Made by a program: the position numbers and the translations under genes
Part shown: piece after piece, positions 20,770-59,045 of the stretch
How positions within the stretch are numbered: position 1 is the stretch's first letter
Layout of the letters: each line of letters opens with the position of its first letter
Assembly (NCBI GenBank): GCA_018822665.1
Contig: JAHJJX010000027.1
Location: 248,001-312,000, forward strand
Reading direction: 5' to 3'
Length of the DNA: 64,000 nt
DNA from: a bacterium
GTDB lineage: Bacteria > Campylobacterota > Campylobacteria > Campylobacterales > Sulfurimonadaceae
Notes under the pieces: generated by a model
The model's input: the letters and a program-made list of their open reading frames with translations, nothing else
What the model was told of the DNA's origin: nothing
The model's database searches: none

Positions 20770-21602
20770 TCTTGTATCCTTAATGTAAACCCTCTATCAA
20801 ACCCACTCAAGTCTTTGTAAAACGCCAGTTTTTCAAATTTTTCATTTTGCAAATAGTTTGTTATTCTATCTTGTTGGTCATAACCTATCTCGCAGGTAAA
20901 TAAGTTAATACGAAGCCTTAATACATCATTAAGAAGCTCTTGGATTATCTCATCTCCTATGTTTCCTCCAAAAAGTGCATTTTGGGGTTCATACGACAAA
21001 TTGGACTCCAGCTGTGCATCCTTTGCTATATAAGGAGGATTAGATACCAAATAATCTATTTGTTCAGTTACAGGCTCTAAAAGTGAGCCTAAACGCAACT
21101 CGATTCTCTCTTGTAGGGAAAACTTTTTAATATTTATCTTTGCTACTTCCAGAGCGGCAGGTGAAATATCCACCGCGATGAACTTGGCATGTGGAAAGTG
21201 AAGGGCAAGCATAATGGAGATGATTCCGCTTCCGACTCCAACTTCTGCAAAAGTCATCTCGGCATGTGGATTCGAAACATTTTTAATCACTTCATCTATA
21301 AGAATTTCTGTCTCAGGACGGGGGATAAGCGCACCCTTTGTTATGTAAAACTCCCGACTGTAAAAACTCACTCTGTTCGTAATGTATTCAAAAGGCTCAT
21401 TTTCAGCCCTGCGCTTCACCCATTCACAAAGCTTTTCAAGCTCTTTAACTTCGGTATTTTGATTTGTAATAAGCCAAAGTTCGTCACATTGCAAATGGGC
21501 CATTAAAAGAAGCTGGGCTTCTCTTGAAGCTCTTGGAATGACAGGGTTTAAAATAGCCGTAATTTCTTTGAGTACATTTTTTACTAAAGAACCGCTTGAC
21601 AT
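20766..21602 (-). CDS. prmC: Peptide chain release factor N5-glutamine methyltransferase PrmC
   Basis: This enzyme methylates the glutamine of the GGQ motif in release factors RF1 and RF2 using S-adenosylmethionine. An N-terminal helical domain (1-80) precedes a Rossmann-like methyltransferase domain with VGVGSGIISIML and the catalytic NPPYI. At 278 residues it is normal length. The start overlaps the end of the M48 protease gene by 19 bases. Two copies of the GGCATGTGGA repeat lie inside it. Confidence 0.95.
   Translation of the reverse strand: MSSGSLVKNVLKEITAILNPVIPRASREAQLLLMAHLQCDELWLITNQNTEVKELEKLCEWVKRRAENEPFEYITNRVSFYSREFYITKGALIPRPETEILIDEVIKNVSNPHAEMTFAEVGVGSGIISIMLALHFPHAKFIAVDISPAALEVAKINIKKFSLQERIELRLGSLLEPVTEQIDYLVSNPPYIAKDAQLESNLSYEPQNALFGGNIGDEIIQELLNDVLRLRINLFTCEIGYDQQDRITNYLQNEKFEKLAFYKDLSGFDRGFTLRIQD
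21186..21195 (+). repeat. GGCATGTGGA repeat (in prmC)
   Basis: The full form CTTGGCATGTGGAAAG is read on the minus strand as PHA within HFPHAKF of PrmC. Confidence 0.8.
21261..21270 (+). repeat. GGCATGTGGA repeat (in prmC, second copy)
   Basis: CTCGGCATGTGGATTC; it reads PHA in NPHAEM of PrmC. This is one of two copies where the base pair after the core is AT-T rather than AA. Confidence 0.75.
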
Positions 21603-23248: not shown

Positions 23249-23674
23249 ATGAAAATATTGAGTGTTAAAAATTCACTGCTAGCGGCACTTATGCTGAGTT
23301 CAACTCTTTTTGGTGCGGATGGTTATGAGGTTTATAAAAAAAACTGCATCTCCTGCCATGTCGAAAGTATGAAAAAAAGTGAGGTTTTAAAAAAATTTAA
23401 AACTCTTAAAGCTCCGCCTATGGTTGAAGTGTCCAATCGCTTAAAAGATAATATTATCATTAAAGACGATGACGACGATGTTCACCGCCATCTGTTTATT
23501 TTATTTGTAAAAGATTATATTCAAAATCCAAAACTAGATAACAGTATGTGTCATCCCGGTGCGCTGGAGAGGTTTGGCGTGATGCCTTCGTTAAAAGGAA
23601 AATTAACGGATGATGAAAAAGAAGCCGTTGCACAATGGCTTTACGACAGATATGAAAATATAAAGTTTGATTAA
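23249..23674 (+). CDS. Periplasmic monohaem cytochrome c
   Basis: A 141-residue protein with a signal peptide (cleavage near LFG-ADG) and one haem motif CISCH near residue 34. A later RFGVMPSL supplies a plausible methionine ligand. A second cysteine-histidine (MCHPGA) lacks the first cysteine and is not a haem site. The start is ATG 23249 after AAAGGGG, not the upstream TTG. A TATAAT lies at about 23209-23216. It is probably a soluble electron carrier in respiration. Confidence 0.85.
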   Translation: MKILSVKNSLLAALMLSSTLFGADGYEVYKKNCISCHVESMKKSEVLKKFKTLKAPPMVEVSNRLKDNIIIKDDDDDVHRHLFILFVKDYIQNPKLDNSMCHPGALERFGVMPSLKGKLTDDEKEAVAQWLYDRYENIKFD

Positions 23675-23680
23675 AATTTG

Positions 23681-23716
23681 TTTCCACATGCCAAGATGAT
23701 TCTTGGCATGTGGAAA
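23681..23716. terminator. Bidirectional hairpin made of two inverted GGCATGTGGA repeats
   Basis: TTTCCACATGCCAAGA (23681-23696) and its exact complement (23701-23716) form a 16-base-pair stem with a TGAT loop. It sits between the convergent cytochrome and Dabb genes, where it could end both transcripts. Inverted pairs of uptake sequences play this role in Neisseria and Haemophilus. Confidence 0.8.
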
Positions 23717-23724
23717 TCTTGCCG

Positions 23725-24018
23725 TTACTCTAAGATGTAATCCACAACTTTTGATTCTGTTGTCACTTCTTTTATAAGCTCAACCACTTTTAAATGCTCC
23801 TCATGATTCGCATATTCTTCTAAATCTTCGAGTGTCTCAAAAGTGCTATAAAGAGATAAATCAAAGGCTCTCTCACTTTCATTAAAGTTTATGCCCACTT
23901 CCATAGATTTTAAACAGGATATCTGCGATTCTAATTTCATAAGTTTATTTTGAACTTTCGCCATATTTAAAATTTTATTCTCATCTTTGAATTTAAACAT
24001 CACTATGTGAACTATCAT
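23725..24018 (-). CDS. Dabb (stress-responsive alpha-beta barrel) domain protein
   Basis: A 97-residue protein matching the Dabb fold: it starts with MIVHIVMFKFKDENK and continues with the dimeric ferredoxin-like pattern ending VVDYILE. Dabb proteins form small dimeric barrels; their reactions vary and are mostly unknown in bacteria. It stands alone, convergent with the cytochrome gene. Confidence 0.85.
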   Translation of the reverse strand: MIVHIVMFKFKDENKILNMAKVQNKLMKLESQISCLKSMEVGINFNESERAFDLSLYSTFETLEDLEEYANHEEHLKVVELIKEVTTESKVVDYILE

Positions 24019-24084: not shown

Positions 24085-24276
24085 ATGAAAGATTTATATG
24101 GCAGTTCAATACTCTTTTTTTACTTTTTAAAGTGGCCTTATTCTTTTGGTTATCCAATCCTTTACATGAACGGACTCAATCAAAACGACATTCTCAACCT
24201 CTTATGGTTCTTATGTTTGGCACTTATAGCAAAAGACTTTATCGGCATGTGGAAAAACAAAAAAACAAAAAATTAA
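24085..24276 (+). CDS. Possible small membrane protein
   Basis: A 63-residue frame with two hydrophobic stretches (SSILFFYFLKWPYSFGYPIL and ILNLLWFLCLALIAKDFIGMW). It overlaps the end of the transporter gene on the other strand by 4 bases. No clear ribosome site precedes the ATG, and I recognise no family. The composition looks like a real small membrane protein, but the call is uncertain. Confidence 0.45.
   Translation: MKDLYGSSILFFYFLKWPYSFGYPILYMNGLNQNDILNLLWFLCLALIAKDFIGMWKNKKTKN
24244..24253 (+). repeat. GGCATGTGGA repeat (in small ORF)
   Basis: It reads GMW in IGMWKNK, a different reading frame from the PHA copies. Confidence 0.75.
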
Positions 24277-26662: not shown

Positions 26663-27535
26663 GTCCTGTAAAGAAATATGTGGGTTTTTACCCTCAAGCA
26701 ACTCATATACCTCTCTTGCTATGGGAAGATATAAATTTTTTTGTTTTGCTATATCATGCAGAGCGTAAGCTGTTCCTATCCCCTCGGCAACTTCTCCCAA
26801 CTCCTCAAGAATCTCTTTTTTACTTTTTCCACATGCCAAGCCCAGTCCTACGCGAAAATTTCTTGACATTGTTGATGAAGCCGTTAAAAATAAATCTCCT
26901 GCTCCGCTTAACCCGACAAAGCTTTCCTCTTTTGCGCCGTACACTTTGCCAAATCTTTGCATCTCAACCAAACCTCTCGAAATAAGCGATGCTGCCGCAT
27001 TTTTGCCTAAAGCCAATCCTTCACAAATCCCTGCGGCAATTGCTATTACATTTTTATAGGCTCCTGCAACTTCAGCACCCATAACATCCGTAGAAGTGTA
27101 GGTTTTGATAAAATCCGGAAAAAAAGAAGCAAATTTCTTACTCAACTCTTCATTATGCGAATTTACTACAAGCGCCGTCGGCAAAGACTGCATAACTTCC
27201 GTGGCAAAAGACGGACCTGATAAAAACGCTATATTTGAATCTGGAACATACTCTCCATATATCTCATTTAAAAATTTTCCGCTTGAAGCTTCTATCCCTT
27301 TTGCGGCAACCAAAATTTTTTGGTTATTAAACACAAAATGCTCGTCAAGCCATGAGGACACCTGTTGTGCAGGTATGGCTATCACTAAATATTCCAACTT
27401 TAATATTTCTTCTAAAGTAACAAAATTCTTTAAATCCCTCGGAGTCCTTGAGTGTATATATACCTCATTTTTTTTCGACAAAGCAAAAGCTAAGGCCGAA
27501 CCCCATTTACCTGCTCCAATTATCCCAATCGACAT
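26648..27535 (-). CDS. gpsA: Glycerol-3-phosphate dehydrogenase [NAD(P)+] GpsA
   Basis: This enzyme reduces dihydroxyacetone phosphate to sn-glycerol 3-phosphate for phospholipid synthesis. The N-terminal Rossmann motif is IGIIGAGKWGSALA. The family motifs LSGPSFATEV and the catalytic-lysine region GAYKNVIAIAAGICEG are present. I chose ATG 27535 (MSIGIIGAG) over an upstream in-frame ATG at 27562, because GpsA starts directly with this strand and GGGAG precedes it. It overlaps the TrkA-like gene upstream by 29 bases. Confidence 0.95.
   Translation of the reverse strand: MSIGIIGAGKWGSALAFALSKKNEVYIHSRTPRDLKNFVTLEEILKLEYLVIAIPAQQVSSWLDEHFVFNNQKILVAAKGIEASSGKFLNEIYGEYVPDSNIAFLSGPSFATEVMQSLPTALVVNSHNEELSKKFASFFPDFIKTYTSTDVMGAEVAGAYKNVIAIAAGICEGLALGKNAAASLISRGLVEMQRFGKVYGAKEESFVGLSGAGDLFLTASSTMSRNFRVGLGLACGKSKKEILEELGEVAEGIGTAYALHDIAKQKNLYLPIAREVYELLEGKNPHISLQDLLSN
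26828..26837 (-). repeat. GGCATGTGGA repeat (in gpsA)
   Basis: The complement reads CTTGGCATGTGGAAAA and is translated as ACG in GLACGKSKK, a third frame. Confidence 0.78.
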
Positions 27536-31216: not shown

Positions 31217-31288
31217 AAGTTTCCTTAAATAAATAATAATTTGGAGGTTTATGTTATCAAAATTATCTTTTAAATCTACTAAAAGATA

Positions 31289-31318
31289 CTTGGCATGTGG
31301 AAATTTCCACATGCCAAG
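31289..31318. repeat. Perfect 30-base palindrome made of two GGCATGTGGA repeats
   Basis: Arms CTTGGCATGTGGAAA (31289-31303) and its complement (31304-31318) meet with no spacer. It lies 73 bases upstream of gatB, between divergent genes, so it is not at a transcript end. The sites are at 31292-31301 (+) and 31306-31315 (-). Confidence 0.85.
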
Positions 31319-31431
31319 CGTTAATCTCATTTTACAGACTTTTTCAAATAAATCTCATTGAAGTGTTTCGGGAAGGAACGAAAGAAACTCAATTAACACT
31401 CTTTACTTTTGTAAAATATATAGCTACACTT

Positions 31432-36974: not shown

Positions 36975-41121
<4,147 letters not shown>

Positions 41122-41179: not shown

Positions 41180-42496
41180 CTAAATCTTTGTTTCCAGCCA
41201 CTCTTTTTTTTGATAAATATAATAAAAAATCAGACCTTTGAGGAGAGTTTCTATATTCATAATTATAAAAATAGAAATGATGCCAAAGCCTGACTTGTAA
41301 GCAATGTAGGAGGGGATAACTCTCAAGAACCATAAAGACAAAACATTGACCTTGAGTGTTATTTTAGTTGCTCCTGCCCCTCTTAAAGCTGCCGAATAAA
41401 CAAAAACAATGGCTAATGGGATTTGGGCCAAACCTACAAGTATCAGATACAGCGAAGCAACTTTAATAGTTTCGCTGTCTTTTGTGAAAAAGCTGACTAA
41501 AAATTCCGGAAACAGTATAAGAAAAACACCGACACTGCCCATAAAAACATAAGCGATTCTTCCGCTGATAACACCCATAGCATAAGCTTTTTCTTTATCA
41601 TTTGCTCCCAGATTTTGACCGACCAAAGCCATAGCCGCTATTGCAAAACCAAAACCCGGCATAAAAGCGATTCCTTCTATTCGAAGACCCACTTGATACC
41701 CTGCCAGCTCTGCCGTTCCGTACGCTGCAATAATGGCTACAAAAACCAAAAATGAGAGACTGGAAATTCCTCTATCAAGGGCAGCGCTCCATCCCACATG
41801 CCAAGCTCTTATCATATCTTTCACACGTATAACGGGGATGAAACTAAGCTTGGCATGTGGAAGTTTTAAAAGAACCGAATAGGCCGCGATATTAAATGTA
41901 TAGGCAATCACTGTTGCATACGCTGCCCCTTCAATCCCCATCGCTTCAAAACCGTAATGACCAAAGATAAAAACATAGTTTAAAAAAGCATTGAGCGCCG
42001 CGGAAAACAGTTTGATGTAAAGTGAATTTTTTGTATCGCCCGCGGCGGAGAGCGCATTGTAAAGAAGTGTGTCAATAAAAATAACCACAATTGCACATGC
42101 CAGAATTTTGAAATAAAGTGAACCTTGATGCACCACCTCAGGTTCTGCGCCCATCATGCTGTAGATAAATTCGCTTCCGTAATACCCGCCAATACTTACA
42201 AATACAGACAAAACAACTGCAAAAATTCCAAGCGAAAACAGCAGAGCAGATGCTCTTTTTTTTCTTCTTTGACCGATAAATCTGGAGATAAGCGCATTCC
42301 CGCCAACCACATAAAGTGTCATCAAAACATTAATAATCATCATAAACTGCATACTCATGCCAACCGCTGCAAGCGCATAAATGCTCACCATACCGACCAT
42401 TATCATATCGATGAGAATTTGAAGAATATCTACGAGATGTTTTAACGCAGCGGGGATGGCAAGTTGAAACACTTTTTTTGTGTCGCGGGAAATCAA
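41180..42496 (-). CDS. MATE-family efflux transporter
   Basis: A 438-residue protein with twelve predicted transmembrane helices in two homologous halves. It has the MATE motif region MVGMVSIYALAAVGMSMQFM and the repeated QxxGxGFAIAAMALVGQNLGA. It uses Na+ or H+ gradients to export cationic drugs or other compounds. The start overlaps the stop of the preceding gene by 4 bases. It contains one GGCATGTGGA repeat. Confidence 0.9.
   Translation of the reverse strand: MISRDTKKVFQLAIPAALKHLVDILQILIDMIMVGMVSIYALAAVGMSMQFMMIINVLMTLYVVGGNALISRFIGQRRKKRASALLFSLGIFAVVLSVFVSIGGYYGSEFIYSMMGAEPEVVHQGSLYFKILACAIVVIFIDTLLYNALSAAGDTKNSLYIKLFSAALNAFLNYVFIFGHYGFEAMGIEGAAYATVIAYTFNIAAYSVLLKLPHAKLSFIPVIRVKDMIRAWHVGWSAALDRGISSLSFLVFVAIIAAYGTAELAGYQVGLRIEGIAFMPGFGFAIAAMALVGQNLGANDKEKAYAMGVISGRIAYVFMGSVGVFLILFPEFLVSFFTKDSETIKVASLYLILVGLAQIPLAIVFVYSAALRGAGATKITLKVNVLSLWFLRVIPSYIAYKSGFGIISIFIIMNIETLLKGLIFYYIYQKKEWLETKI
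41852..41861 (+). repeat. GGCATGTGGA repeat (in MATE gene)
   Basis: CTTGGCATGTGGAAGT; it reads PHA in LPHAKLSF. A one-mismatch copy (CCCACATGCCAAG) is 50 bases away at about 41794. Confidence 0.78.
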
Positions 42497-57843: not shown

Positions 57844-59045
57844 GAGGCTTCCTTAATATTTTTTGTTTTTAAAATCCATGCAAAATAAATTGCACCGATA
57901 ATAAATCCCAAGCCCAGCAAAACCGTTATAAACTCAAGAGAATAATTCCTGCTTGCCAATTCACCTATTATCAAAGAGGTAAACGTTGCAAAAGTTAGAA
58001 AAAGCATATCATTATAAGCAACGATTCTCCCGTAATATTTTTGCTCAATATTTTTTTGAAGCAGAGTGTAGGTATAGGACCAAAGCGTTGTAGTGAAAAA
58101 TCCTACGATGATACTCGCAAAAATCGAAAGATAAAAATTACTCATCATGATGGCCCACAGCCAAATCGCAAATGCTTGAAAAATAAAAAGATAAACTAAC
58201 CTTTTATTATTTATCCAGTTACCGAGTATTAAGGGACCTATCACAAGACCAAGGGCTCTTGATGCATGCATAAGTCCAAGTGCCAAAGAAGTTGCCATCA
58301 GAGAAGCATAATATTTATCTACCATCAAAGCGACAAGAGCATCAAAAGCGGTAAGTCCTACAAAAGCATGCATCAGCATCAAATGCATGGCATGTGGAAA
58401 TCTTTTCAAGTATCTAAAAGTATCTCGCATCATCTGAAATAAATTTTCCTGCCCCTTGATAAACTCCACTTTAATCTCTAAACCATACAATAAATAAAAA
58501 CCTGCGACAAACATCAAAGCATCAAGAATGAAGGCTATTTTTATACCAAGCATATACACTACAAATCCGCTTGTAGCCATCCCTATTGTGTACGAAAATG
58601 ACCAGATGATAGAATGTATTTCATTTGCTTTTTGTAATTTATCGCCATGAAGAAGCTTCGGCAAAAGTGACATTTCGGTAGTAAAATAAAAACTAGCCGC
58701 CGCCATACGTATAAAAATTAAACTAAACAATAACCACAGATGGGAGATATCATTTACAAAAAGTAAAAAAAAGGTTGAAAAAATTTCAATTGTGATGAGA
58801 ATCAACATAAGGTTCTTAGGTTTTACGCTGTCGATGACAGAGCCTGAAAAAGGGGCTTGAATAATCCCCGCTATAAAGTGCAAAGCTGCCGTAAAAGCAA
58901 TCACTTGGGCTGAAACATTTAAATTCAGCAAAAGTGTATAAATGGCAATATTGCTAAACCAGGTACCAAAGTAAGTGATAAGTTGTATAAAAGATAATTT
59001 TCTTAAAATCTCTTCTGATTTTAATAATTGTATATAGGGATTCAT
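57840..59045 (-). CDS. MFS transporter
   Basis: A 401-residue protein with twelve predicted transmembrane helices in two halves. The loop sequences after helix 2 and helix 8 resemble the small-molecule and siderophore efflux branch (MFS_3-like, ENTS type). Substrate unknown. It carries the only GGCATGTGGA repeat found outside the 16.7-42.9 kb block (58389). Confidence 0.85.
   Translation of the reverse strand: MNPYIQLLKSEEILRKLSFIQLITYFGTWFSNIAIYTLLLNLNVSAQVIAFTAALHFIAGIIQAPFSGSVIDSVKPKNLMLILITIEIFSTFFLLFVNDISHLWLLFSLIFIRMAAASFYFTTEMSLLPKLLHGDKLQKANEIHSIIWSFSYTIGMATSGFVVYMLGIKIAFILDALMFVAGFYLLYGLEIKVEFIKGQENLFQMMRDTFRYLKRFPHAMHLMLMHAFVGLTAFDALVALMVDKYYASLMATSLALGLMHASRALGLVIGPLILGNWINNKRLVYLFIFQAFAIWLWAIMMSNFYLSIFASIIVGFFTTTLWSYTYTLLQKNIEQKYYGRIVAYNDMLFLTFATFTSLIIGELASRNYSLEFITVLLGLGFIIGAIYFAWILKTKNIKEAS
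58389..58398 (+). repeat. GGCATGTGGA repeat (in MFS gene)
   Basis: ATGGCATGTGGAAATC; it reads PHA in RFPHAMHL of the transporter. Confidence 0.78.

Follow-up and report, generated by a model that had tools for sequence, protein, structure and literature searches.

A candidate DNA uptake sequence in one Sulfurimonas lineage, with inverted pairs kept as putative hairpins at gene 3′ ends

Within the window, by which we mean the whole 64,000-nucleotide stretch that was analysed, a cytochrome c family gene and a Dabb gene converge, their stop codons both facing a hairpin at 23681–23716. The earlier note had described this element as a perfect 16-bp hairpin with a 4-nt loop, built from two motif copies between convergent genes, and its coordinates and the flanking stops were confirmed. 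The arms, TTTCCACATGCCAAGA at 23681–23696 and its exact reverse complement at 23701–23716, enclose the 4-nt loop TGAT and consist of two inverted copies of the word GGCATGTGGA. The predicted RNA fold has a free energy of −28.3 kcal/mol (z −8.48; 0 of 200 shuffles equal), and its stem comprises 17 pairs when an outer G-U is included. The features of the window are as follows.

23249..23674, plus strand, cytochrome c family gene (Pfam PF13442/PF00034), stop 6 nt before the hairpin
23681..23716, no strand assigned, two outward-facing motif copies in inverted arrangement, forming a hairpin with 16-bp arms and a 4-nt loop
23681..23696, minus strand, motif copy TCTTGGCATGTGGAAA, 0 mismatches
23701..23716, plus strand, motif copy TCTTGGCATGTGGAAA, 0 mismatches
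23725..24018, minus strand, Dabb gene (Pfam PF07876), stop 8 nt after the hairpin
31288..31319, no strand assigned, inward-facing inverted pair between divergent gatB and AAA_14/DUF4143 genes
21182..21197, plus strand, single motif copy
24240..24255, plus strand, single motif copy
26826..26841, minus strand, single motif copy
38182..38197, plus strand, single motif copy
41848..41863, plus strand, single motif copy
58385..58400, plus strand, single motif copy

The motif is strikingly abundant. When up to 3 mismatches are allowed, the window holds 18 copies where 0.85 would be expected, and 15 of them have the exact 10-base core. The Sulfurimonas genome to which it belongs (G000; 2,507,095 bases in 44 contigs) carries 859 copies (422 on the forward and 437 on the reverse strand), versus 2 copies of a control word made by reversing GGCATGTGGA. 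A 439-kb sample of this genome contained 138 exact copies where a Markov model predicts 0.4, and these copies give the consensus C-T-Y-GGCATGTGGA-A-w-T. Position −4, the leading T of the hairpin arms, is T in only 36% of them, so the 16-base identity of the arms, which the earlier note took as a help in defining the full consensus, exceeds the conserved motif. When genes were called with a simple custom gene finder, 91 of the 138 copies lay in genes, 46 were intergenic and 1 fell on an edge, corresponding to densities of 0.235/kb within genes versus 0.879/kb between them, a 3.7-fold difference. Among the copies in genes, 37 of 47 in antisense orientation share one frame, which encodes P-H-A, and 24 of 44 in sense orientation occupy the A-C-G frame. 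A separate word, GACACAGA/GACACAGACAC, was also over-represented in the 439-kb sample (45 copies versus about 6.9 expected), perhaps reflecting a repetitive gene.

Inverted pairs of the kind at 23681–23716 form a genome-wide class, a point that the earlier note had proposed to check. Pairs spaced by at most 24 nt number 21 outward and 24 inward in the same genome, 17 and 43 in G083, 43 and 45 in G105, and 45 and 37 in G142, and the reversed control word yields no inverted pair. In 839 kb of contiguous stretches from three genomes, 19 inverted pairs (gap at most 24 nt) were observed versus 3.1 in simulations, an approximately six-fold excess (7 versus 0.73 in G000, 9 versus 2.11 in G142 and 3 versus 0.24 in G083); the same stretches held 4 direct pairs (1, 3 and 0, respectively). 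Stem extension beyond the core was above chance for inward pairs only (p = 0.0015); for outward pairs, such as that at 23681–23716, it was at chance (p = 0.55), and complementary extension was therefore rejected as a general feature. One locus of G083 (L326) has four inverted pairs in the space of 6 kb, and that genome also contains a dispersed imperfect palindrome of ~96 bp with a motif pair at its centre (L326, L328, L361).

The other point to be checked, whether such pairs cluster between convergent genes, proved too narrow a description. Of the 19 pairs, 13 have a gene 3′ end next to them, in every case no more than 20 nt away; of 67 single copies in the three-genome sample, 22 lie within 30 nt of one. 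The remaining 6 pairs are in genes (3) or in divergent gaps (3), and divergent gaps account for 2 of the 7 pairs in the G000 sample. The 60 pairs of G083 comprise 19 in convergent gaps, 31 in codirectional gaps, 3 in divergent gaps, 3 in genes and 4 at contig ends, and a 3′ end is no more than 20 nt away from 34 of 50 pairs versus 10 of 32 single copies (p = 0.0015). The convergent share of these pairs, 19 of 53, exceeds that of gaps (45 of 283, p = 0.0018), most of which come from regions picked for their pairs, and does not differ significantly from that of intergenic single copies (10 of 36, p = 0.49). Across 32 pair loci in four genomes, 31 were intergenic, and 17 of the 28 with both neighbours predicted were convergent. 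Because the G083 pairs follow 3′ ends in general, the rule of placement is just after genes, with convergent junctions as the double case, and we rejected a feature of convergent genes alone. The other pair in the window, at 31288–31319, is perfect and has divergent genes on either side, so that neither neighbour could be ended by it.

Like an intrinsic terminator, the 23681–23716 element is a stable stem-loop just past stop codons, between convergent genes. Unlike intrinsic terminators, the GGCATGTGGA-pair stems are not followed by a T run: among 39 distinct pairs, a run of at least four T residues was found on 10 of 78 sides, versus 7.8% in controls, and a terminator scan did not list the 23681–23716 hairpin. 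A canonical U-tract terminator is thus unsupported. Lacking a U-tract, such hairpins would more probably serve as a 3′-exonuclease barrier or in Rho-assisted termination than as textbook intrinsic terminators.

The history of the cytochrome/Dabb junction suggests that the hairpin itself is what has been kept. Dabb was detected in 28 of 32 genomes (in three of the 28 its open reading frame was not placed, and in one it had no left gene), and in 6 it has the convergent cytochrome neighbour. A hairpin is present at all 6 orthologous junctions, and at 3 of them (G000, G105 and G142) it is built from a motif pair, with loops and flanks that are unlike one another. The G143 junction carries a shortened pair, that of G148 a motif relic with arms that, at altered positions, remain able to pair, and that of G093 an unrelated 12-bp hairpin. 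The junction hairpins in this comparison fold with z scores from −4.7 to −8.0, with the exception of the weak one in G148 (z −1.9). A motif pair also adjoins Dabb in G135, where the left gene is different. Junctions at which Dabb is followed by a codirectional gene had no pair; G144 had a single copy there. These comparisons suggest that the junction retains a hairpin of one kind or another and that a motif pair is one way of building it.

Conceivably, the pairs at 3′ junctions arose as by-products, for example by template-switch copying where constraint is low, and are tolerated there while serving no function in RNA. 3′ junctions are indeed permissive, single copies too are common in convergent gaps in the G083 comparison given above, and the missing U-tract fits such an origin as well. 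However, inverted pairs far outnumber direct ones (19 versus 4), and a junction hairpin persists in G143, G148 and G093, which have a degraded motif there or none. We consider by-products somewhat unlikely, and favor the retention of the pairs as 3′-end hairpins.

The motif itself is confined to part of the genus Sulfurimonas. Among 200 genomes of the family, 8 contain 357–1302 copies, 6 contain 36–183 and 186 contain at most 19. Relatives have other abundant words, including TTACATGTAA (G053, G137 and also Sulfurospirillum loci), CTCACGCAG (G001 and S. indica), YAAACGCAG (907–1453 copies in 6 of the 200 genomes and 88–464 in 14 more) and AAACGCCAT; a further candidate, AGATGCTA, was weak and was set aside. 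AGCATGTGGA (G168) and GGCATGTGAA (G018, of another genus) are clear dialects of the GGCATGTGGA word and have a common core with it, which is not clearly present in YAAACGCAG, CTCACGCAG or TTACATGTAA. The abundant words of relatives diverge more than the dialects of the Neisseriaceae uptake sequence, DUS, are understood to. When motif labels were mapped onto a 69-row PriA tree (7 of 76 labelled loci had no usable PriA and were left out), 22 changes were required versus 31.2 for shuffled labels, and 0 of 200 shuffles were as low; the label was "none" on 36 of the 69 rows, often owing to a short locus. TTACATGTAA/CTTACATGTAAG, a palindrome, is present in great excess in several families of Campylobacterota (G053, G137, L175, L178, L189 and L190, of which L189 and L190 are Sulfurospirillum).

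Short words may also become abundant for reasons of segregation, recombination or nucleoid organization and methylation, as exemplified by Chi, KOPS and HIP1. That GGCATGTGGA is such a word is, in our estimation, quite unlikely, despite some observations in its favor: the abundant words of relatives differ, one of them (TTACATGTAA) being a palindrome, as is the cyanobacterial HIP1, and in G140 and G001 the local word lies mostly in genes, with no clear excess of pairs (2 versus 0.72 for YAAACGCAG in G140 and 3 versus 0.78 for CTCACGCA in G001). GGCATGTGGA, however, is not a palindrome. Chi and KOPS are polar words, and this type is disfavored because GGCATGTGGA is strand-balanced within single stretches of one GC-skew sign, its orientations being roughly even in such blocks (23/17 in C4 and 10/15 in C7).

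The absence of the motif from apparently acquired DNA also argues against a word of this kind, and was examined for two segments. The longest stretch free of exact copies in the sample of the same genome is 29.65 kb (loci L047–L048, G000:C20:179968-209662, G+C 32.5%), whereas 95% of uniform simulations gave less than 22.7 kb. It encodes ArdC, a PcfJ-like protein, a NERD helicase, a HisKin-conflict protein and a WYL protein, and is foreign-looking. The other segment, an 8.1-kb insert in comEC of G148, has no copies, although the motif is eroded in that genome anyway. With genes named by eye from translations, the longest gap in G142 proved to be a ribosomal protein operon, and that in G001 a giant repetitive gene.

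A third argument against a maintenance or recombination word comes from erosion of the motif in two genomes with a missing or split comEC. The genome studied here carries ComEC, DprA and type IV pilin-like genes, and ComEC was detected in 189 of the 200 family genomes; among genomes of the same genus with completeness of 90% or more and contamination of 5% or less, it was absent from G143 only. G143 has 183 exact copies and 677 with at most one mismatch, the mismatches being scattered across motif positions, as in decay. In G148, which has 141 and 589, comEC is in two pieces about 8.1 kb apart on one contig. The ratio of one-mismatch to exact copies is 2.7 in G143 and 3.2 in G148, versus 0.31–0.43 in 7 of the 8 genomes with the full motif and 1.2 in the eighth (G169). 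The motif is also eroded in G093 (71/268) and G123 (36/258) despite a full-length comEC, and in G192 (81/264) although comEC was matched there, at a contig end. A missing or split comEC in 2 of 5 eroded versus 0 of 8 full genomes is not a significant difference; the link of erosion to comEC loss is suggestive, and G143 and G148 may not be independent. DprA was found in 24 of 25 genomes examined, the exception being the full-motif genome G151; its presence in G093 and G123 rules out its loss as the cause of erosion there.

Besides a prepilin-like open reading frame, the G148 insert (L207:5262-13355, G148:C15) carries genes for a KwaB-like protein of Kiwa defence (PF16162) and for a TnsA-like endonuclease (PF08722), and is possibly a Tn7-like element whose arrival abolished transformation. 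Upstream of priA (L102:6525-8010 and most of the loci L122–L201) are two or three pilin-like genes whose products share a nearly constant N-terminus and vary extremely at their C-termini. The similarity of the first of these pilins is uncorrelated with that of PriA (r 0.02), which suggests exchange or diversification. In 29 loci with a motif label, a PriA and two or more pilins, the priA-adjacent pilins showed no covariation with the motif of the kind to be expected of a specific receptor such as ComP (partial r −0.03, p 0.69, and 0.06, p 0.15). A cluster of type II secretion/competence-like genes (L104, G000:C26:29-39 kb), with secretin-, ATPase- and pseudopilin-like members named by eye, is seemingly missing from some relatives, e.g. 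G001 and G127, judging by pilin matches.

A spread of the pairs as mobile or REP/Correia-like palindromic repeats is very improbable, for although G083 has a ~96-bp repeat centred on a pair (C30:5788 and C96:166) and partial similarity at C32:1521 and C30:7642, flanks and loops are mostly unlike among 39 distinct pairs and all 60 of G083, most motif copies are single, and the motif pairs at the three orthologous junctions differ in loop and flank.

The genomic profile of GGCATGTGGA resembles that of the two known types of uptake sequence, DUS and the USS of Pasteurellaceae, in its copy excess, strand balance, inverted pairs at gene ends, depletion from acquired DNA and accompanying competence genes. 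In the DUS literature (PMC3630211, PMC2397512), DUS is a word of 10–12 bases with very many copies on both strands, like GGCATGTGGA, occurs as dialects by lineage, and forms inverted pairs at gene ends that are described as terminators. GGCATGTGGA differs from it in phylum and sequence and in forming pair hairpins without a U-tract. USS (PMC12616744) is likewise short and enriched, with inverted repeats and with distinct sequence types in a single family. Its sequence is unrelated to GGCATGTGGA, and specific uptake is established for USS, whereas for GGCATGTGGA we infer it. The literature that we searched contained no report of an uptake sequence in Campylobacterota or of an uptake test in these bacteria, and among the matches listed, no paper containing the motif letters was about uptake by its title.

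We propose that GGCATGTGGA is probably a DNA uptake sequence of one Sulfurimonas lineage, the pairs being kept as putative 3′-end hairpins. The motif would direct uptake, serving as a self-tag read by the natural-transformation machine, and biased uptake followed by recombination would cause its accumulation throughout the genome. Two opposite copies landing just past stop codons would form a strong hairpin, which might be retained as a 3′-end element for one or both flanking genes and presumably ends or protects their transcripts. The proposal of the earlier note, that uptake sequences had been recruited as a bidirectional terminator, is thereby modified: the uptake-like profile, the siting at 3′ ends and the persistence of a hairpin in relatives speak for it, while the missing U-tract speaks against termination of the intrinsic type.

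On balance, it also seems that Campylobacterota represent a third, independent lineage with uptake sequences, one that would show erosion upon competence loss and the recruitment of GGCATGTGGA pairs as 3′-end hairpins. Several unlike self-words would then have supplanted one another along the tree in Sulfurimonadaceae and perhaps Sulfurospirillaceae. If this is true, the third lineage is free-living, and its numerous related species, its several motifs and its natural losses would permit direct tests of how uptake sequences originate, spread and change, and of the identity of their receptor. It would also mean that recruitment of such motifs into gene-end hairpins happened outside the two families in which they are known.
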